From NCBI GenBank assembly GCA_017999235.1, contig JAGOBN010000229.1, positions 1-6,704 on the forward strand: 6,704 nucleotides of DNA. Reading direction: 5' to 3'. Under the pieces are notes generated by a model. It saw nothing but the letters and a program-made list of their open reading frames with translations, searched no databases and was not told where the DNA came from. Shown one piece after another: positions 56 through 6,704 of the stretch. The translations under genes were made by a program, and so were the position numbers. Positions within the stretch are counted from its first letter, which is position 1. The number at the start of each line of letters is the position of its first letter. The stretch comes from Anaerolineales bacterium. Lineage in GTDB: Bacteria > Chloroflexota > Anaerolineae > Anaerolineales > UBA6663.

Positions 56-1549
56 TTACCGCGCCAGGCCGCTGGCTTCCACCTCCGGCCCTTTGTGGGT
101 CACCCGGTTAAAGCTGACCAGCCGTTCAGTGAGCCAGCCCAGCGTGCCGCGCAGCGGCGACGCGCTCACCGCCCGCTTGAGCGAGCCTTCCCAATAGTGC
201 TTGAAATACCGGTTTCGCCAGCGCCAGCGCAGCAGGCGGTAATACGGCGTCAGCAGCCAGTGGCCGGTGGACCGGCCCACAAACAAGATGTCGTTGATCT
301 CGCACAGCGTCTGCGCCTCGGCGTCGTCCATCCAGGGCGTGTTGCCGCGGTTGAGGTCGAACGCGCACCAGCCGAGCTGATCGGCCGGCGGCTGGTAGCC
401 CAGGGCCAGCGCCTGCGGCCACAGCGGCGTGCCGGGATAGGGCATATACACGCACACCGAGCCGCGCACTTTCTCCGACAGCGCGCACACGCGCTCGATC
501 AGGTCCAGCGTCACCTGGGTGTCGGCCGGCGTCTCCCCCGGCAGGCCGATGATGAAGGACAGGTTGGCCTCCACGTTGGGCGCGCCGTGGACCAGGTTCT
601 TCACGCCCCATTCGATCTGCCAGGCCTTCTGATCCTTGTGGATGTTGTCCAGCACGGCCTGCGAGCCGGATTCCGCGCCGATGTTGACCCACTGGCAGCC
701 GGTGGCGCGCATCCAGGCCACAAACTCCTCGGTGAGCAGTTGCACGCGCACCTGGCCGCTCCACGGCATCCCGACCTTTTCCACCAGCCGCTGCATGGGC
801 TTGATGCGGCCGAAAAGATAATCGTCCGCGTAATCCACGGCGTCGATCTGGTAATGGTCTTTGAGCCATTGCACCTGGTCCAGGATGAAGGCATCCGAGT
901 GCTGGCGCCAGGTGCGCTTCATGACCACTTCGTTGTAGCAGAAGCCGCACCGGAACGGGCAGCCGCGCGAGATGTAAATGGGGATGGCGCGCCGGTACGG
1001 GCCGCTGGGGATTAAATAGCGCTCGCCGGCCACTTTCTCCCAGCGCGGGCGAAAGCGGTCCAGGTCCTGGATGAAGGGCCGCTCCTGGTGAAACTGCGGC
1101 CGGCCGTGCTCATCCTTGTACGCCAGGCCGGGCACGCTCTGCCACAGAGGCAGCTGGTCGCCGGCCAGCATGCGCGCCAGCTCCTGCGCCGTCTCTTCGC
1201 CCTCGTTCACCACCACGAAGTCCACGTACGCTTCTTTGAGTACCTCCAGCGGCATGATGGTGGCGTGCACGCCGCCCCAGACCACCGGGATGCCCAGGGC
1301 CTTGACGCGTTGGGAGGCTTCAATGGTCGGGCGCAGCTGCGGGCCGGTGATGGTGCTGAACCCGACAAAAAGGGGCCGGGCCTCGGCCACCTGCCGCACA
1401 AAGTCTTCCACAAAACCTTCGGTTTCGTGGAAGAGGCGGGTGCTGAAGCCGGCCTGCTCCAGCGCGTCGGCCACGTACATGATGCCGAAGGGCGGATAGA
1501 GATCGCGGTGGTTGCGGAAGTTGATCAGGAAGACCGTCCGGTTATCCAT
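56..1549 (-). CDS. B12-binding domain radical SAM protein
   Basis: This 497-aa protein has the two-domain layout of cobalamin-dependent (class B) radical SAM enzymes, which typically methylate or rearrange unactivated carbon or phosphorus centres using S-adenosylmethionine, a [4Fe-4S] cluster and cobalamin. Residues about 5-130 form the Rossmann-like B12-binding domain, with VVWGGVHAT near 89-97 and VNEGEET near 114-120. The radical SAM motif CPFRCGFC supplies Cys197, Cys201 and Cys204. GAESGS at 291-296 fits the SAM-contact segment, and FIIGLPGET (332-340) and YPGTPLW (371-377) are typical of the family. The C-terminal ~90 residues are basic and aromatic-rich and do not point to a substrate. 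The ATG at 1549 is preceded by AGAAGG at seven bases' spacing. A 132-nt gap separates it from the upstream FGE-like gene, so it may have its own promoter. The family call is firm; the substrate is unknown. Confidence 0.93.
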   Translation of the reverse strand: MDNRTVFLINFRNHRDLYPPFGIMYVADALEQAGFSTRLFHETEGFVEDFVRQVAEARPLFVGFSTITGPQLRPTIEASQRVKALGIPVVWGGVHATIMPLEVLKEAYVDFVVVNEGEETAQELARMLAGDQLPLWQSVPGLAYKDEHGRPQFHQERPFIQDLDRFRPRWEKVAGERYLIPSGPYRRAIPIYISRGCPFRCGFCYNEVVMKRTWRQHSDAFILDQVQWLKDHYQIDAVDYADDYLFGRIKPMQRLVEKVGMPWSGQVRVQLLTEEFVAWMRATGCQWVNIGAESGSQAVLDNIHKDQKAWQIEWGVKNLVHGAPNVEANLSFIIGLPGETPADTQVTLDLIERVCALSEKVRGSVCVYMPYPGTPLWPQALALGYQPPADQLGWCAFDLNRGNTPWMDDAEAQTLCEINDILFVGRSTGHWLLTPYYRLLRWRWRNRYFKHYWEGSLKRAVSASPLRGTLGWLTERLVSFNRVTHKGPEVEASGLAR

Positions 1550-1578: not shown

Positions 1579-1682
1579 GCCACGAATTACAGGCAGGTGC
1601 TTGACTTCACCAACTGTCCGCCCTCTCTGAAACGCCCACGCCGCCCATTCGTGCCATTCGTGCCATTCGTGTAATTCGTGGC
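1579..1682. repeat. 13-bp perfect inverted repeat bracketing the 132-nt gap
   Basis: GCCACGAATTACA at 1579-1591 is repeated in inverted orientation as TGTAATTCGTGGC at 1670-1682, with 78 bases between the arms. The right arm touches the stop codon of the FGE-like gene and the left arm lies 30 bases upstream of the radical SAM start. The arms could pair in a transcript reading through the gap, or be the ends of a small mobile or recombined repeat. The match stops abruptly on both sides of each arm. I see no promoter in the gap that I would defend. Confidence 0.7.
1647..1682. repeat. Four tandem 9-bp repeats, ATTCGTGNN
   Basis: Four consecutive 9-mers start with ATTCGTG: two with CC endings (1647-1655, 1656-1664), one with TA (1665-1673) and one with GC (1674-1682). 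The array abuts the stop codon of the FGE-like gene, and its last copy is part of the 13-bp inverted repeat. From memory, similar ATTCGTG-type strings recur between genes in some environmental bacterial genomes, but I could not check this. The function is unknown. Confidence 0.85.
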
Positions 1683-2515
1683 TAGTCTTCAATGGCCACC
1701 CGGAACCCGGTCCCTTGCGCGCGATAGTGGCGGCTGGGGGTGGTGACGCTGCCCGCGCTGCGGACGTAGAGCTTGGTGTGGTGGATGCTGTAGCCCCACG
1801 AGCCGCCTTTGACCACGTGATACTCCGGCTGGGCCGGGTGGTAGAGCGAGCGCGTCCACTCCCAGATGTTGCCGCTCATATCTACGCACCCGAAGGGCGA
1901 GACGTTGTGCGGTTTGACACCCACCGGCCAGGGATACCCGTTGCGCCAGTACCAGCCCGCCCGCGCCCACTCGCGCCGCGCGCCGACCACTAAAGAAAAG
2001 AGATAGGTCTCCGGCCCCACCGGAAAACGCCGCTGCCATTGCAGTTCGGGCCGCGGGGTCAGCTCACCCCACGGGTAGGTCCGGCCGTCCAGGCCGCGCG
2101 CCGCTTTTTCCCACTGCTCTTCGGTCGGCAAGGTGCAGAGCTGGCCCAGGTGTTGGGACAGCCACGTGCAGTATGCGAACGCGTCGGCGTGTGAGACCTC
2201 CACCACCGGCCAAGCGGCATGCGCGGCTGGATACTCAGACACAGGCGCATAGACGCGCTGCCAGCGGGCGCGCCAGCCGGGCCGCACCGCGTACCAGCGG
2301 CCGGCCCATTCATATCCGGTGTCGTCCAGGAAAGCCCGCCAGTCGGCGTTGGTCACCGGCCGGCGCGCGATCCAAAACCCAGGGAGCTCCAAGACCTGGC
2401 GCGGCCGCAGCGGCCGGCATTGCGCCAGGCGTTCGTAGCACGCTTCCGGCCCATAAATAAACGGGCCGGCCGGGATGTGGGCAAATACCGACGATGGAAG
2501 CACCACAGGCCGCAT
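1682..2515 (-). CDS. FGE-sulfatase (SUMF1-like) domain protein lacking catalytic cysteines
   Basis: The protein belongs to the formylglycine-generating-enzyme fold family. Residue numbers here count from an upstream TTG at 2527, four codons before the ATG chosen as start. Family landmarks appear in order: HIPAGPF (17-23), RRPVTNADW (55-63), LPTEEQWEKAARG (133-145), YPWG (151-154), SPFGCVDMSGNIWEWT (210-225), GGSW (241-244) and GFRVA (274-278). In true FGE, two copper-binding cysteines follow the GGS motif, five residues apart. Here those positions are Tyr246 and Thr251, so sulfatase activation is unlikely. Other branches of the family serve as oxidoreductase or ligand-binding modules. No signal peptide or membrane segment is visible, so it is probably cytoplasmic. 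The ATG at 2515 is preferred because the TTG sits on the flank of a terminator-like hairpin; neither start has a convincing Shine-Dalgarno sequence. The role and any partner are unknown. Confidence 0.88.
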   Translation of the reverse strand: MRPVVLPSSVFAHIPAGPFIYGPEACYERLAQCRPLRPRQVLELPGFWIARRPVTNADWRAFLDDTGYEWAGRWYAVRPGWRARWQRVYAPVSEYPAAHAAWPVVEVSHADAFAYCTWLSQHLGQLCTLPTEEQWEKAARGLDGRTYPWGELTPRPELQWQRRFPVGPETYLFSLVVGARREWARAGWYWRNGYPWPVGVKPHNVSPFGCVDMSGNIWEWTRSLYHPAQPEYHVVKGGSWGYSIHHTKLYVRSAGSVTTPSRHYRAQGTGFRVAIED

Positions 2516-2525
2516 TCCAAGGGTC

Positions 2526-2557
2526 AAAACCCGCCGACCGGGTTTATTCTCGGCGGG
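2526..2557 (-). terminator. Terminator-like hairpin between the DUF5693-like and FGE-like genes
   Basis: On the minus strand CCCGCCGA pairs with TCGGCGGG (plus-strand 2550-2557 and 2530-2537), giving an eight-base-pair GC-rich stem with a 12-base loop. TTTT (2529-2526) follows it. The hairpin spans the TAA stop of the DUF5693-like gene, and its T-run ends 11 bases before the ATG of the next gene. The short T-tract makes complete termination doubtful. Partial termination or attenuation between the two genes is possible. Confidence 0.4.
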
Positions 2558-4385
2558 CGGCCAGCAAGAGCAGCGCTCCCAGCCCGAGGCCGGCTCCGAA
2601 GCTCAGCCCGGCTGCGCGCCCGGTGATGGAGAGCGCACGTTCTGAGCGGCGGAAGCCCACCAGCCCGAACGCGCCGCCGGCCGCGCTTAATCCCGCCGCC
2701 GCGGCGGCCCACCCCCGTTGGCCGCGCTCGGCCAGCACCAGGCTCGCCGCCGCGCCGAGCGGCGCCAGGCCGGCCCATTTACGCGCCGGCTGGGCGCCGG
2801 CCGCAATCTGCAGATCGCCCAGCCAGCGGGCCGCGGCCGAGAGATGATGCGTGTGGCCCTCGGCCGGCGCCGGGTCAAAACGCGCCAAGGGATCCAGACC
2901 GCGCGTGTTGGCGAGATGCCAGGCGGCGGCCAGGCCGGCCAGCGCCGCCAGCCGCAGCGCGCGGTTTTCCAGGGTCAGCGCCGCCGCCGCGAGCGGCACC
3001 GCCCAATCCAGGTTGAAGCCCTTAAAGGTTTCAATCCGCAGATGGTAGTCCGCGCCGCTGGTCACGGCCGCCAATTCGGCGGCCGCGGCGGCCAGGCCCG
3101 CGCTGCCGGCCAGCCAGCCGGCCGGGCCATCCCGGCGGGCGGCGTGCAAAGCGGCGGCTGGGGCCGCGGCGGCGGCGGCCAGCGCCAGCAGTTTGGGCGC
3201 GTAGGAGGGCGGATACTGTTCTTCCAGCGCGTTGCGCGGCGCTTCGAGGTACGGCAAGGCGGCGGCGCCGGCCGCGGCCGCCACCGTCAGCGGCACGCCG
3301 ATCACATCCGGCAGGTCGAGCGCGGCGCTTAGGCCGCCGGCCGCCACGCCGGCCGAGGTCAGGCCGGCCAGCGCCAGGGTGGCGCGGCTGGGGGCCGGCA
3401 CCGGCGGCGGCATGGCCGGCTCGGCGCAGACCACGAAGCCGGCGTGTTCCAGCGCTTCTTTGATGTGCGCCACGTAGTGCAAAAACTCCAGCGGCGCCGT
3501 GGCGTGCAGCACGCGGAAGGCGTTTACGTAGCACAGTCGGAGGCCGCGCTCGCGGGCCAGGTGCGCCCAGAGATGCGCGGCCGCGTGCAGGTCCAGCGGC
3601 ACCATCTCGGCCGGCGTCAGGCGGTGCGCCAGAACCACGTGCGGGGCGCGGCGCTTGGCCACAAACCAATCGCCCTTTTGATGGCGGGATTCCGCGAAGT
3701 AGGCCAGCGTCAGGCCCTCGCGCGTCAGCGCCGCCAGGGTGGCGTCCAGGTGCATCTCGTGGCCCAGGATCAGATCGCCGTCAAAGGCCACCAGCCGGCC
3801 GAAGACCGCGGCCTGGGCCAGCGTCAGATCGATCAGCCGGTCCTCCGGCCAGGCGTAGCTCACCGGGCGCGGCAGACAGTGCAGGCCGGCCTGTTGAATG
3901 CGCTGCGCCAGCGCGGCATCGAACCCCAGGCCGATCTCGCCCACGGTGGATAGGTCGCCGGCGAAGGCCAACGTGTTGGCGCCTACGGTGCGCGCCTCGG
4001 TTTGCGGCAGGCGCGCCGCCAGCTCCGCGGCCAGGGCGGCCGCTAAGGCGGCGTCGCCATAGAGATAATTCCAATGGCCGATCGGGGCCGCGGCCCGGAT
4101 GGGCCGGGCCGGCGCGCGGGGGATGAGCGCGCCGGTGGCGCGCAGACGGTTCAGGGTGAGTTCGGGAAGCGAGGCGTGCGTGGCGCCGTGGTGGGCCAGC
4201 TCGTGGAGCACATCGTCCAGCGGGCGGGCGGCGCGCACCGCGATGGCGGCAGTGTCGTCAAGATCGACGGCCAGAGCCACGCGGTTGTGGCGCGGCTCCC
4301 ACGCCGCGCGCCGGCGCAGGAATTGGCCGCTGGCGGCCGCGCCGGCGCCGGTCAGGGCCAGGGAAAGCAACCGGGTGAAATTCAC
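2544..4385 (-). CDS. DUF5693-like membrane protein
   Basis: This 613-aa protein resembles, from memory, the DUF5693 family of unknown function. A hydrophobic N-terminal segment (about 5-22) is followed by WEPRHNRVALAVDLDD (29-44) and a repeated pattern of the family (DDVLHELAHHGATHASLPELTLNRL, about 57-81, quoted here as DDVLHELAHHG then ATHASLPEL). Residues about 40-325 look like one soluble, probably extracytoplasmic domain. From about 335 to the end, alanine- and leucine-rich stretches suggest a multi-pass membrane domain, interrupted by LEEQYPPSYAPKLL (387-400) and DYHLRIETFKGFNLDW (446-461). The start is GTG at 4385, supported by GAGGT seven bases or so upstream. It follows the leader-peptide gene in the same orientation, but an inverted-repeat arm lies just before its ribosome binding site. 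Function is unknown. In other bacteria I recall the family near cell-envelope polysaccharide genes; that is unverified here. Confidence 0.8.
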   Translation of the reverse strand: MNFTRLLSLALTGAGAAASGQFLRRRAAWEPRHNRVALAVDLDDTAAIAVRAARPLDDVLHELAHHGATHASLPELTLNRLRATGALIPRAPARPIRAAAPIGHWNYLYGDAALAAALAAELAARLPQTEARTVGANTLAFAGDLSTVGEIGLGFDAALAQRIQQAGLHCLPRPVSYAWPEDRLIDLTLAQAAVFGRLVAFDGDLILGHEMHLDATLAALTREGLTLAYFAESRHQKGDWFVAKRRAPHVVLAHRLTPAEMVPLDLHAAAHLWAHLARERGLRLCYVNAFRVLHATAPLEFLHYVAHIKEALEHAGFVVCAEPAMPPPVPAPSRATLALAGLTSAGVAAGGLSAALDLPDVIGVPLTVAAAAGAAALPYLEAPRNALEEQYPPSYAPKLLALAAAAAAPAAALHAARRDGPAGWLAGSAGLAAAAAELAAVTSGADYHLRIETFKGFNLDWAVPLAAAALTLENRALRLAALAGLAAAWHLANTRGLDPLARFDPAPAEGHTHHLSAAARWLGDLQIAAGAQPARKWAGLAPLGAAASLVLAERGQRGWAAAAAGLSAAGGAFGLVGFRRSERALSITGRAAGLSFGAGLGLGALLLLAARRE

Positions 4386-4398
4386 GCCAGGACCTCGT

Positions 4399-4427
4399 TC
4401 ACTTTAGGCCAGAGGGAGACGCGCTAC
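4399..4427. repeat. Left arm of 29-bp imperfect inverted repeat
   Basis: This arm matches the reverse complement of 4624-4652 at 25 of 29 positions, including an uninterrupted 16-base core GCCAGAGGGAGACGCG at 4408-4423. It ends 13 bases before the GTG start of the DUF5693-like gene, immediately upstream of its GAGGT ribosome binding site. The two arms enclose the leader-peptide gene and its ribosome binding site. Confidence 0.85.
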
Positions 4428-4508: not shown

Positions 4509-4574
4509 TTAGTGGCTGCTAAAAGTGACTTGTTTCAGGTCGTCGTGCTTGGTCAGCTCGGGCTTCTCATACAT
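4509..4574 (-). CDS. Lasso-type RiPP leader peptide, 21 aa, almost without a core
   Basis: The gene starts at ATG 4574 and ends at TAA 4511-4509. The product begins MYEKPELTKH and ends QVTFSSH. The lasso-precursor leader consensus is YxxPxLxxxGxFxxxT; here Tyr2, Pro5, Leu7 and Thr17 sit exactly on the consensus spacing, with Asp11 in place of Gly and Leu13 in place of Phe. In known systems this leader is bound by a PqqD-like recognition element and is cut two residues after the Thr register. Only three or four residues remain beyond that point, too few for a threaded lasso ring, which needs an Asp or Glu acceptor at core position 7-9. AAGGAG stands seven bases upstream of the ATG, the best ribosome binding site in the window, so translation is credible. 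It follows an NTP_transf_5 gene, a family often found in lasso clusters. The product may be a truncated precursor, a leader-only recruiter, or a scaffold. Confidence 0.75.
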   Translation of the reverse strand: MYEKPELTKHDDLKQVTFSSH

Positions 4575-4581
4575 GGCGGTT

Positions 4582-4587
4582 CTCCTT
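4582..4587 (-). promoter_or_regulatory. Strong Shine-Dalgarno site of the leader-peptide gene
   Basis: The minus strand reads AAGGAG, with seven bases before the ATG at 4574. It is the main argument that this very short open frame is a real gene, and it fixes the start codon. Confidence 0.85.
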
Positions 4588-4623: not shown

Positions 4624-4652
4624 GTAACGCGTCTCCCTCTGGCGGAAAGCGA
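4624..4652. repeat. Right arm of 29-bp imperfect inverted repeat
   Basis: This is the partner of 4399-4427, with the core in inverted orientation (CGCGTCTCCCTCTGGC, 4423 side equivalent at 4628-4643). It lies in the presumed 5' untranslated region of the leader-peptide gene, between the candidate promoter and the ribosome binding site. The outer ends lie 254 bp apart. I found no convincing target-site duplication outside the arms and no transposase, so a MITE-like origin is only one possibility; RNA pairing around the peptide gene is another. Confidence 0.85.
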
Positions 4653-4679: not shown

Positions 4680-4707
4680 ATTTTAGCGTAAAGCCGGCGA
4701 CTTTCAC
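4680..4707 (-). promoter_or_regulatory. Candidate sigma-70-type promoter for the leader-peptide gene
   Basis: On the minus strand GTGAAA (4707-4702, four of six matches to TTGACA) is followed after 16 bases by TAAAAT (4685-4680, five of six matches to TATAAT). It overlaps the stop codon of the nucleotidyltransferase gene and would transcribe the leader peptide about 110 bases downstream. This AT-rich patch stands out in the GC-rich surroundings. A second partial -35-like TTGACT overlaps it (4679-4674) but lacks a good -10 partner. Confidence 0.3.
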
Positions 4708-5876
4708 TTATTGCGACCAATCGCATTAGCGCGGTCGAGCAGCAGGCGGCCGGTATCGGTCCGGCCGACGCGCAGGGCGGTGGCCCAGACGCGCGCCCAC
4801 TCGGCTGGCGTGCTCGCCCAGCTCGCGGCCTCGGCCCGGTCGCTTAGCCCGCGCCGGACGCGCTCCGCCACGGTTACCAGCGGTTTCTGCTGGGTCCGGC
4901 GCCAGAGCGCGGCCAGGTCCAGGGCCGCCGCGCGCCGGCGCAGATGAGCGGGGGTGGCCGCCGCCAAGACCGGCAGAGCCTCGGCCACGGGCGCGTCCAG
5001 CAGCCGGCCGGCCAGGCTGAGTGCGGCCAGCGCGTACGGGGCGGCGCCGCGCTCGCGGGCGCGGCGCGTAAACGTCTCCCAATCGAGGCCGGCCGCGCTG
5101 ACCACCTGCAAATCCAGCAGCTGCACCATGGCCGGCGCGCCGGCGATGACGTGAAAGCAGAAGTGAACGCACAGGTGCAGCAGCAGGTCCTCGCGCGCCA
5201 GCACCCGCGCCGGCTGGCCGGCCAGCGTCACCGCCGCCGCGCGCTCGCGCACGCCGGGCGTGATGTCCACGCGCAGCCCGAACCAGGCCTCGGTCAGCGA
5301 GGTGTGCGGCTCCACCATGCGCTCCGCGTCGCCGGAAAGATACGGGTTGGGCGTGCCGGCTGGCGCCGCCGCGCGCTGGTAGGTGCTGGTGTGCTTCACC
5401 ACGCCGGGGCCGGTTTCCGGTGATTTGTGCTTGCCGCCGTAGCCCAGCGCCCGCAGCACCGCCTCCGCCGCCGGCAGTTCCGCGGGCTCAAAGAGCAAGT
5501 CGATGTCGTTCATCGGCCGCAGGGCCGGCGCCGGATACACCAGCGCGGCCAGGTGCGCGCCCTTCAGGACGATGGGCCGCAGGTTGCTTTGCGCGGCGGC
5601 CTGCAGCACCTCGGCCAGCTGCGTGTAGAGGCCGGCCGCGCGCTGGGCCTGCGCCTGATACGTCAGGCTGAGCTTGGCGGCGGCGCGGGCCGGCACCGCC
5701 GCGCCCCAGGCGGTCAGCCGCTGGTGCAGCGCCGGCGCGAGGCCCAGCACCATGGCGCGCACGGCCAGCCGGTCGAAGTCGGCGCCGGCGGCCGCGGCCA
5801 GCCAGCGCTCCGGGGTCTGCTCCCGGCGCAGCGCGTCGAACAGCAGCTGGGTTTCCGCGCCGGCCGTCCGGTTCAT
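4704..5876 (-). CDS. NTP_transf_5-type nucleotidyltransferase family protein
   Basis: This 390-aa protein has the marks of the uncharacterised nucleotidyltransferase family PF14907 (NTP_transf_5). After a helical N-terminal part come VLKGAHLAAL (103-112) and RPMNDIDLLF (120-129). The Asp124-x-Asp126 pair is the expected metal-binding signature of the nucleotidyltransferase fold. VEPHTSLTEAWFG (188-200), EDLLLHLCVHF (229-239) and LLDL (253-256) follow in the usual order. It would transfer a nucleotidyl group to an unknown acceptor. The family is a frequent accessory in lasso-peptide clusters and also occurs near surface-polysaccharide genes. The ATG at 5876 overlaps the upstream stop as ATGA, indicating translational coupling with the flavoprotein. 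No signal peptide or membrane segment is seen. The leader-peptide gene begins about 130 bases downstream. The family is well supported; the substrate is not known. Confidence 0.9.
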   Translation of the reverse strand: MNRTAGAETQLLFDALRREQTPERWLAAAAGADFDRLAVRAMVLGLAPALHQRLTAWGAAVPARAAAKLSLTYQAQAQRAAGLYTQLAEVLQAAAQSNLRPIVLKGAHLAALVYPAPALRPMNDIDLLFEPAELPAAEAVLRALGYGGKHKSPETGPGVVKHTSTYQRAAAPAGTPNPYLSGDAERMVEPHTSLTEAWFGLRVDITPGVRERAAAVTLAGQPARVLAREDLLLHLCVHFCFHVIAGAPAMVQLLDLQVVSAAGLDWETFTRRARERGAAPYALAALSLAGRLLDAPVAEALPVLAAATPAHLRRRAAALDLAALWRRTQQKPLVTVAERVRRGLSDRAEAASWASTPAEWARVWATALRVGRTDTGRLLLDRANAIGRNK

Positions 5877-6704
5877 GTTTCCGCGCCGGCCTCATCCGCC
5901 GAGAGCGCGGAGTGGGGCGTGAGCCGCAGTTCTTCGTGATACGAGCGCTCGGTGTTGACGTCCCACACATCATGGCGCTCGCCGGCCAGGTTGCGGACCG
6001 CCAGCATGGCCGTCAGCATCGAGTGATCCTGATTGTTGTATTTGTGCAGGCCGTTGCGGCCGATGGTTTGCAGATTCTCAAAGCCGGCCAGGTACGCTTT
6101 GAGGGTCTCCAGATAGCGGGCGTAGGTGCTGTTGTAGACCGGGTAGGCCTTGGGCTGGCGGATCACCAGGCCGTCGAAGACATCGGCCGGCTGAACCAGC
6201 CCAATCTGCGCCAGCTCACGCTGGCCCAGCGCGATCAGGTCGCGGTCCGCCATCGTCCAGAGCGCGTCGCCCTCGTTCACAAAATACTCCAGGCCGAGCG
6301 AGGTGGTGGCGGGGTCCGGCACCATCTCCGGGCTCCAGTTCTTGAAGTTCTGCACCCGGCCCACATGCACCTCGGGCGAGTGAATGTAAATCCAGTTGTC
6401 GGGGAAGAGTTCGGGCTGGCGGACCAGCAGGATCACGGTCAGGAAATCCCGGTAGGTCAAGCCGCGCGCGGCGGCCAACACCGCCGGCGGGGCCGGCGGA
6501 TCAAGCTTGAGGATCAGCTCGGACAGCGGCATGGATGAAATGACGTGCGCGGCCTCGAAGACGCGCGTCTGCGCGTCCTGGCGCGCCGTCACATCCAGCA
6601 CCCGGCCGCCGGCGTGCCGCACCGTCAGGGCCTGGGTGTTCAGATGGACCTGCCCGCCGCTGGCGCTCACGCGGTCCGCGGCGGCGCGCCACATCTGGCC
6701 GGGG
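5873..6704 (-). CDS. FAD-dependent oxidoreductase, protoporphyrinogen-oxidase/amine-oxidase-like (N-terminus outside window)
   Basis: About 276 residues of the C-terminal part are present. The frame is open to the window edge and reads PGQMW at its start, a family motif normally in mid-protein, so the internal ATG at 6694 is not the true start; the N-terminal FAD-binding GxGxxG segment lies outside. Visible landmarks are VISSMPLSELI, RVQNFKNWSPEMVPD, EYFVNEGDALW and GRNGLHKYNNQDHSM. The last is the conserved C-terminal flavin-contact region shared by UDP-galactopyranose-mutase-like and HemG/HemY-like flavoproteins. Members of this branch are usually annotated only as NAD(P)/FAD-dependent oxidoreductases and commonly sit beside glycosyltransferase and exopolysaccharide genes. 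The stop overlaps the next start as ATGA, so it forms a coupled pair with the nucleotidyltransferase. The substrate is unknown. A role as true protoporphyrinogen oxidase is unlikely, given the absence of haem genes in the window. Confidence 0.87.
   Translation of the reverse strand, partial: PGQMWRAAADRVSASGGQVHLNTQALTVRHAGGRVLDVTARQDAQTRVFEAAHVISSMPLSELILKLDPPAPPAVLAAARGLTYRDFLTVILLVRQPELFPDNWIYIHSPEVHVGRVQNFKNWSPEMVPDPATTSLGLEYFVNEGDALWTMADRDLIALGQRELAQIGLVQPADVFDGLVIRQPKAYPVYNSTYARYLETLKAYLAGFENLQTIGRNGLHKYNNQDHSMLTAMLAVRNLAGERHDVWDVNTERSYHEELRLTPHSALSADEAGAET

Follow-up and report, generated by a model that had tools for sequence, protein, structure and literature searches.

A conserved 21-codon gene of Chloroflexota encodes a candidate minimal precursor of a linear phosphopeptide-type RiPP

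A Short Gene with a Leader-Like Peptide and Its Neighbors

The window analyzed here, a 6,704-nt stretch of DNA from an Anaerolineales bacterium, has its five large Pfam-matched genes and one short gene on the minus strand, in the order partial FAD oxidoreductase, NTP_transf_5 protein, a 21-codon open reading frame (ORF) that we call mini, DUF5693 protein, FGE-domain protein, and B12-radical-SAM protein (Table 1). A sequence-only reading of this DNA had singled out the short ORF, and each detail it gave was verified: the 21 codons, the AAGGAG site, Tyr2, Pro5, Leu7, and Thr17, and a stop codon directly after FSSH. A six-frame search of the window for Y..P.L.{4,12}T returned mini as its single match. 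Six short ATG ORFs (15 to 60 codons) in the window have an SD-like site, and one of the six, mini, contains Y..P.L.{9}T; an SD-bearing short ORF with this pattern arose in 0 of 300 dinucleotide-shuffled windows. The NCBIfam model lasso_leader_L3 matched mini weakly (E 0.2, 11.8 bits against a cutoff of 19), and plasmids searched at the DNA level gave no near match.

Table 1. Positions of genes and features in the window
Feature	Position	Strand	Basis or remark
Mini, candidate precursor gene, MYEKPELTKHDDLKQVTFSSH and stop	4509..4574	-	21-codon ATG ORF; kept in 17/18 close NTP_transf_5 loci
Ribosome-binding site AAGGAG of mini	4582..4587	-	Seven bases 5′ of ATG
Mini C-terminal Ser19-Ser20-His21, proposed core SSH (FSSH if cleavage is after Thr17)	4512..4520	-	Conservation
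Upstream arm of inverted repeat/RNA stem enclosing mini	4624..4652	-	Pairing, covariation, folding
Downstream arm of inverted repeat/RNA stem enclosing mini	4399..4427	-	Pairing, covariation, folding
NTP_transf_5 (PF14907) protein, PsmN/LppN-like putative peptide-modifying transferase	4704..5876	-	161 bits, cutoff 31.2
DUF5693 protein	2544..4385	-	Same family in 14/18 mini loci (window counted)
FGE-sulfatase-domain protein	1682..2527	-	Same family in 8/18 mini loci (window counted)
B12-binding radical SAM protein	56..1549	-	Same family in 5/18 mini loci (window counted)
FAD oxidoreductase (PRK07208-like, partial)	5873..6703	-	Neighbor, association uncertain

Conservation of Mini across Relatives

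An NTP_transf_5 profile built from 22 relatives was used to scan species-genome contigs, a scan that rests on two peptide patterns and that gave 26 loci, 18 close (L001 to L018) and 8 distant. Seventeen of the close loci are labeled Chloroflexota, Chloroflexi, Anaerolineae, or a family thereof, and L011 only "bacterium." Among the 18 close loci, 17 have mini 5′ of NTP_transf_5 and the eighteenth (L008) is without upstream DNA; mini was found in none of the 8 distant loci. The peptide alignment comprises 18 sequences of 21 to 29 aa, from the window and the 17 loci, with L001 and L002 represented by one copy each. M1, Y2, K4, P5, K9, L13, T17, F18, S19, and H21 are invariant, and H10 and S20 each occur in 17 of 18. 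The C terminus is [VIM]TFSSH followed by the stop throughout, except for one TFSAH (genome G014). At the DNA level, pS is 0.76 and pN 0.22, giving a pN/pS of 0.29 overall and 0.16 for TFSSH, and both AGC and TCN codons are used for Ser20. Pairwise identity drops as low as 0.26, the random level, within the first ten bases past the stop and is 0.25 to 0.28 more than 10 bases upstream of the start; a purine-rich SD-like stretch precedes the start in all 18 aligned copies. The tandem copies in L001 and in L002 differ at 4 and 7 bases, respectively, all synonymous, so that the paired peptides are identical. Mini is a genuine conserved gene under strong selection.

One option raised by the sequence-only reading was that mini is the remnant of a lasso precursor whose core went missing through decay or a frameshift, an idea suggested by the combination of a lasso-type leader with lasso-type genes, typical lasso cores being longer. 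All 18 copies share one stop and the ending TFS[SA]H, conservation ceases at that stop amid random flanks, and the pN/pS of 0.29 indicates purifying selection; mini is therefore not decayed, and we regard this explanation as ruled out, its remaining chance being negligible. Neither of the outcomes set to refute the sequence-only reading, an ORF lacking conservation or homologous loci that all carry a longer intact core, materialized. When 17 genomes were searched with a mini profile, 16 yielded strong copies, 19 in total, all ending in TFS[SA]H and a stop and all near NTP_transf_5, with none elsewhere in those 16 genomes; the seventeenth, G007, is the source of L008, whose contig begins at NTP_transf_5, and is included in the genome counts nonetheless. 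No longer-core relative appeared under this profile in the 17 genomes at E ≤ 1 (the single extra match had E 0.59), although the profile could underscore relatives with a quite different tail.

The distribution of mini is patchy. It was found in 1 of 400 evenly drawn Chloroflexota genomes, namely the center genome G009, and, with centers counted, in 5 of 25 genomes in the order of G012 and confidently in 3 of 301 in the order of G003. The latter count becomes 6 of 301 at E ≤ 0.05; weak A2 matches in G516, G521, and G585 (E 0.005 to 0.04) are excluded from the gene counts. Viral contigs gave no relatives of NTP_transf_5 or of mini.

The Leader Register

Across the 18 aligned peptides the mini register is Y0, P+3, [LIVM]+5, H+8, L+11, T+15, and S+18. 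It has the lasso YxxPxL with Thr at −2: Y, P, and T occur in 18 of 18, and position +5 varies among L, I, V, and M. The classical lasso leader has a Gly at Y+9, which is missing from mini, an un-lasso-like feature. The lasso leader register proposed from sequence held for its YxxPxL...T positions. The leader register of linear polyphosphorylated peptides (LPP) is likewise present, with His at +8 and Ser at T+3 as LPP-like features, each found in 17 of 18 peptides. The published LPP leader consensus is YxxPxVLxHQxIxFETxxS, with cleavage after T and polyphosphorylation of Ser3 (T+3) (PMC13381572); the Q after H and the FE before T are not kept in mini. In bsf-type lasso precursors, YxxPxL spans −17 to −12 and a kinase phosphorylates Ser3 (PMC10368454). 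Judged by these residues, the mini register fits lasso leaders, and it fits the LPP leader better. Ser19 never varies. In G014 (tail TFSAH) Ala replaces Ser20, the LPP-equivalent phosphosite, so the putative phosphosite of mini could be either Ser19 or Ser20. Register and conserved short tail together lend support to the initial proposal of a putative lasso-type (RRE-binding) leader with almost no core.

Genes around Mini

NTP_transf_5 lies beside every mini, but the loci were collected through NTP_transf_5. A structural model contains a nucleotidyltransferase-like part whose best PDB match is ANT(2″)-Ia (E 4e-4, TM 0.31 by query length); a weak likeness to FKRP, a ribitol-phosphate transferase, is not decisive. 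The PF14907 DxD residues N123, D124, I125, and D126 are invariant in 23 aligned sequences, and activity is predicted. A second, diverged NTP_transf_5 follows the FGE gene in L004 (5594-6799), L005 (10117-11331), and L006 (11884-13110). The model of the DUF5693 protein shows an alpha/beta N-terminal part and long C-terminal helices. A fold search with it gave weak PDB matches, none below E 0.001 and mostly to barrel-type enzymes that point to no one function, and the name DUF5693 was absent from the open-license papers searched.

Canonical formylglycine enzymes carry a Cys pair after GGSW. The FGE-domain proteins of the window, L003, L005, and L010 have instead the motif GGSWGY[ST][IV]HH without Cys, and the window protein therefore need not be a formylglycine enzyme; the top NCBIfam matches of the FGE-domain protein are EgtB and other FGE-fold enzymes, all under cutoff. 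Glycosyltransferases and a flippase-type gene lie near some minis and, with the PRK07208-like oxidoreductase, hint weakly at an envelope or glycan destination.

Other genes occur at individual loci. A family of about 800 to 850 aa is encoded between NTP_transf_5 and DUF5693 in L013 (11046-13610), with homologs in L015, L016, and L018, and had no Pfam match over cutoff in the two members scanned (L013 and L018). A reverse-transcriptase gene is found two genes upstream of mini in L009 (4775-5818, Pfam match) and L014 (4558-5610, homolog). The genes upstream of mini in L009 and L014 that had been considered exporter ABC genes encode tandem-ATPase proteins instead, and L005 has a lone ABC ATPase gene. 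A deltaproteobacterial RiPP-like cluster, L019 (383-8437), contains two PqqD-like and two radical-SAM-like proteins, an HprK-like protein, NTP_transf_5, and a Cys/Gly-rich candidate precursor of 57 aa; its members were named by eye, except NTP_transf_5.

A PqqD-B2 Module in the Same Genomes

PqqD-like, B2, and Asn-synthetase-like genes, the companions that the sequence-only reading had proposed for such a leader, are present in relatives. PqqD and B2 genes are adjacent, in this order, in 16 of 17 genomes (all but G002), either near mini or elsewhere in the genome, and their frequent partners are a divergent HprK-like kinase, an Asn-synthetase-like protein, and an EEP-family (Exo_endo_phos) protein. 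Genes of the fetched loci were called by a simple caller of our own, and local HMMs were seeded from the same loci. In G003, G009, G010, and G011 the module lies about 2 to 11 kb from mini; in G007 its distance to NTP_transf_5 is 3 kb. Eleven of the 16 genomes (G001, G004, G005, G006, G008, and G012 to G017) have module and mini at least 70 kb apart or on separate contigs. For the window organism, whose contig ends before PqqD, B2, or kinase, we infer a PqqD-B2 module. The B12-radical-SAM family also occurs in three further stretches with the module.

PqqD scored over cutoff in 17 of 17 genomes, unrelated PqqDs counted; a local model gave the module PqqDs 73 to 194 bits, versus 20 to 47 for other PqqDs in these genomes. 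The closest solved RRE to the G003 PqqD is TbiB1 (E 1.1e-8), a lasso B1. The B2 profile (A5) was positive in 15 of 16 mini-bearing genomes, the exception being G002, and also in G007. In the order of G012, B2 was found in 5 of 5 mini-bearing versus 1 of 20 mini-less genomes (Fisher p 1e-4), the one being G423, which has neither mini nor a close NTP_transf_5. Ten of these genomes, including 3 in the order of G012, contributed sequences to A5; seed-genome scores are therefore inflated, and very divergent B2s elsewhere could escape this profile. PF13471 was over cutoff in both B2 proteins scanned and NF033537 in one. The Cys and GHAW of the B2 leader peptidase are retained in 16 of 16 sequences, so the enzyme looks intact; the profile matches in G009 and G011 cross a stop, and both sequences end a few residues early in the alignment.

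An HprK-like gene is found in 13 of the 16 module genomes and in none of the fetched stretches of G014, G015, and G016; in G006 it lies near mini, with a mere fragment at the module. The match to the kinase family is weak (TIGR04352, 25 bits; cutoff, 200), and the G003 protein matched no Pfam family over cutoff. The P-loop GAGKTTTG is present in 11 of 12 aligned sequences, the twelfth (G012) being a different paralog, less similar than the copy beside the PqqD of that genome. The Asn-synthetase-like gene adjoins the module in 13 of 16 genomes; contigs end in G004 and G007, and in G001 it lies away from B2. In G015 the copy beside B2 (L074 7078-9068) is split over two overlapping frames, either a broken gene or an assembly error. 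Two of these proteins scored 224 and 239 bits with the lasso cyclase model NF033535 (cutoff 525) and 453 and 484 bits with TIGR01536, asparagine synthase (cutoff 267). By these scores the enzyme resembles AsnB more than a lasso cyclase, and its link to mini could be absent.

In each of the 13 modules found to contain it, the Asn-synthetase-like enzyme has an N-terminal Cys; it could act on a carboxyl end, which bears on the possibility, raised by the sequence-only reading, that mini is a carrier or scaffold, staying intact while an amino acid or glycan is built on its C-terminal carboxyl or its serines in a TglA-like logic. Almost no core, an invariant C-terminal His, and the glycosyltransferases and flippase-type gene near some minis agree with such a role. 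Yet no peptide aminoacyl-tRNA ligase was recognized among 46 Pfam-scanned proteins, a selection of neighbors, and a leader peptidase co-occurs with mini; a cleaved precursor with a three- or four-residue core fits at least equally, and we consider a scaffold quite improbable. The same 46 proteins included no recognizable SpI-like leader peptidase or MsbA-like exporter. Module stretches held no convincing precursor of their own with Y..P. in a search requiring an SD-like site and a distance of <6 kb. Longer candidate precursors with a Y..P.[LIV] leader lie near a different PqqD type, at L089 4745 (plus strand), L091 8501 (minus), and L020 10780 (minus).

An Inverted Repeat Encloses Mini

An inverted repeat brackets mini, or both tandem copies in L001 and L002, in the window and 16 of 17 fetched mini loci (L011 is without it). 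It measures 25 to 32 bases in six of seven regions tested and 10 in L005, and its arm core often reads GAGGCGCGCTA / TAGCGCGCCTC. The stem score, taken from the best ungapped pairing of the 150 bases upstream with the 350 bases downstream of mini, is 46 to 66.5 in 17 of 18 loci, each above the best of its 40 shuffles, with none in L011. Random places in the same loci reached 46, the lowest of the 17 positives, in 8 of 393 cases; for L005, which has this score, 1 of 22 background places matched it. Arms swapped between loci pair worse on average (means 26 to 34). For L005, L014, L015, and L016, and for stem-less L011, one or more downstream flanks of other loci pair better than the native one, so part of the arm pairing reflects conserved sequence. 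Across 17 loci, a 24-column stem has 87% paired cells and 87 compensatory ones in 21 columns, a covariation reached by 0 of 2,000 partner shuffles in a test that favors the observed stem, since the downstream register was picked per locus by best pairing; the best-stem scores and the random-place comparison are less biased. RNA folding gave z scores of −5.7 for the window unit, −5.5 for L016, and −2.6 for L003, which folds moderately (1 of 200 shuffles equally good). Rfam had no match to the window stem stretch. A dispersed repeat of about 97 bases lies directly 3′ of the downstream arm in L010 (about 7866-7960), with at least 18 further matches in G009 and at least 41 in G011.

Mini follows NTP_transf_5 in the window and precedes it in relatives. 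Since the whole unit is displaced in the window, stem and mini appear to travel together. This different operon place, with the foreign flanks that pair better than native ones, would suit a DNA feature, either the terminal inverted repeat of a mobile cassette or an invertible segment. Against it stand the compensatory cells and the orientation of mini, which equals that of NTP_transf_5 in 18 of 18 loci; moreover, the arm motif AGGCGCGCTAYC has 19 sites in seven genomes, and the only close opposed pairs flank mini (G015 and G017), a survey that leaves a dispersed mobile element unsupported. We consider a DNA feature unlikely, though worth keeping in mind, and read the inverted repeat as probably an RNA stem that isolates or stabilizes the mini message.

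Given the enclosing stem, some of the conservation of mini may be regulatory. Mini could more generally be a regulatory leader peptide, whose translation, or stalling at TFSSH, controls downstream genes by attenuation or nascent-chain arrest. In all 17 fetched mini loci it is found 5′ of NTP_transf_5, 143 to 364 bases from the matched start; a covarying long-range stem surrounds it in 17 of 18 loci, and its C terminus is among its most conserved parts. The window unit, located after NTP_transf_5, is at odds with such control, as are the tandem minis of L001 and L002, two within one stem; mini also has the register of RRE-binding leaders, and B2 co-occurs with it both in trans and in cis. On balance we hold a purely regulatory peptide to be improbable.

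A Proposed Pathway

A conserved tag with a near-identical tail, and a lasso-like enzyme set in the same genomes, make mini probably the precursor of a tiny ribosome-made product. We put at about 0.7 the probability that it is a minimal precursor of a linear phosphopeptide-type RiPP with a core of three or four residues, subject to Ser phosphorylation, decoration by NTP_transf_5, and cleavage by B2. From the observed gene, its conservation and leader register, the co-occurring enzymes, and the enclosing inverted repeat, we infer the chemical steps, their order, and the product and its use as follows. Residues 1 to 17 or 18 would be the leader, bound by the PqqD-type RRE (B1). The HprK-like kinase would phosphorylate a Ser of the tail, and NTP_transf_5 would then put a nucleotide-derived or sugar group on the (phospho)Ser. 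The B2 cysteine peptidase, assisted by B1, would cleave after Phe18 in the lasso register, with Thr at −2, or after Thr17 in the LPP register, so that SSH or FSSH would be set free in decorated form. Amidation or coupling of the carboxyl end of the tail may be the task of the Asn-synthetase-like enzyme, and the FGE-like, B12-radical-SAM, DUF5693, and EEP-family proteins could serve later steps or the envelope side.

With so little variation in its tail, mini probably gives rise to a single conserved compound and not to a diversifying antibiotic; a cofactor, an envelope or glycan unit, or a signal are the probable candidates. More tentatively, and at slightly less than even odds, we suggest a RiPP pathway in which a nearly invariant tri- or tetrapeptide (SSH or FSSH) is the only ribosomal contribution, lasso/LPP machinery is repurposed, and the micro-gene is packaged in its own traveling RNA stem; under this tentative proposal, a tail near-invariant across several Chloroflexota lineages would yield one small compound, such as a cofactor or an envelope or glycan phospho-unit.

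Gene finders usually discard ORFs as short as mini, and RiPP mining expects a longer core, so core-less systems are easily missed; we found no report of such a core-less precursor among the open-license papers searched. If the proposal is correct, three or four encoded residues suffice for lasso/LPP-type machinery to produce a conserved metabolite, the uncharacterized NTP_transf_5 and DUF5693 families gain a testable setting, and mini offers a minimal substrate on which the kinase, transferase, and peptidase steps could be measured singly.

Comparison with Known Systems

Mycofactocin and PQQ are small conserved cofactors cut from a short precursor. The mini system shares with them PqqD-type recognition and a ribosomal part of a few invariant residues, but no MftC/PqqE-type enzyme was identified in it and its other modifying enzymes differ. 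In the TglA-type scaffold peptide, 3-thiaglutamate is made at the peptide C terminus (PMC9016710). Were mini a scaffold, both would be peptides serving a small C-terminal product; unlike TglA, mini has encoded and conserved last residues, and no peptide aminoacyl-tRNA ligase was recognized among the proteins scanned.

The modified lasso peptides paeninodin, pseudomycoidin, and bsf have in common with mini the YxxPxL, penultimate Thr, B1, B2, kinase, and NTP transferase, and both B1 (RRE) and B2 (transglutaminase-like peptidase) are present in relatives of the window. Pseudomycoidin carries hexoses on the Ser that PsmK phosphorylates, and their attachment requires the NTP transferase PsmN (PMC9266682). 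Paeninodin is described as phosphorylated on its C-terminal Ser, whereas the last residue of mini is His. A macrolactam has no room in mini, which has four residues after Thr17, none acidic, and no Asp or Glu in SSH, and the two Asn-synthetase-like proteins scored lie far under the lasso cyclase cutoff.

The LPP systems of Popov et al. 2026 (PMC13381572) are described as restricted to Bacillota, and their loci are situated in polysaccharide regions. Their precursors, of 35 to 200 aa with variable C termini (a 45-aa core in the one tested), are processed by an SpI-like peptidase; deletion of lppN had no visible effect. Shared with mini are the leader register, a discrete RRE, an HprK-like kinase (a weak family match here), and an NTP transferase, and some mini loci have glycosyltransferases where LPP loci lie in polysaccharide regions. 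In contrast, the mini system belongs to Chloroflexota, has a peptide of 21 to 29 aa with a nearly invariant tail, outside the 35 to 200 aa and variable core of LPP, uses a putative B2-type peptidase, and adds Asn-synthetase-like, FGE-like, and B12-radical-SAM genes and an enclosing stem. By its residues and gene company, mini thus appears to behave as a lasso/LPP precursor, yet it departs from lasso peptides in core and cyclase and from LPP in the length of its core.
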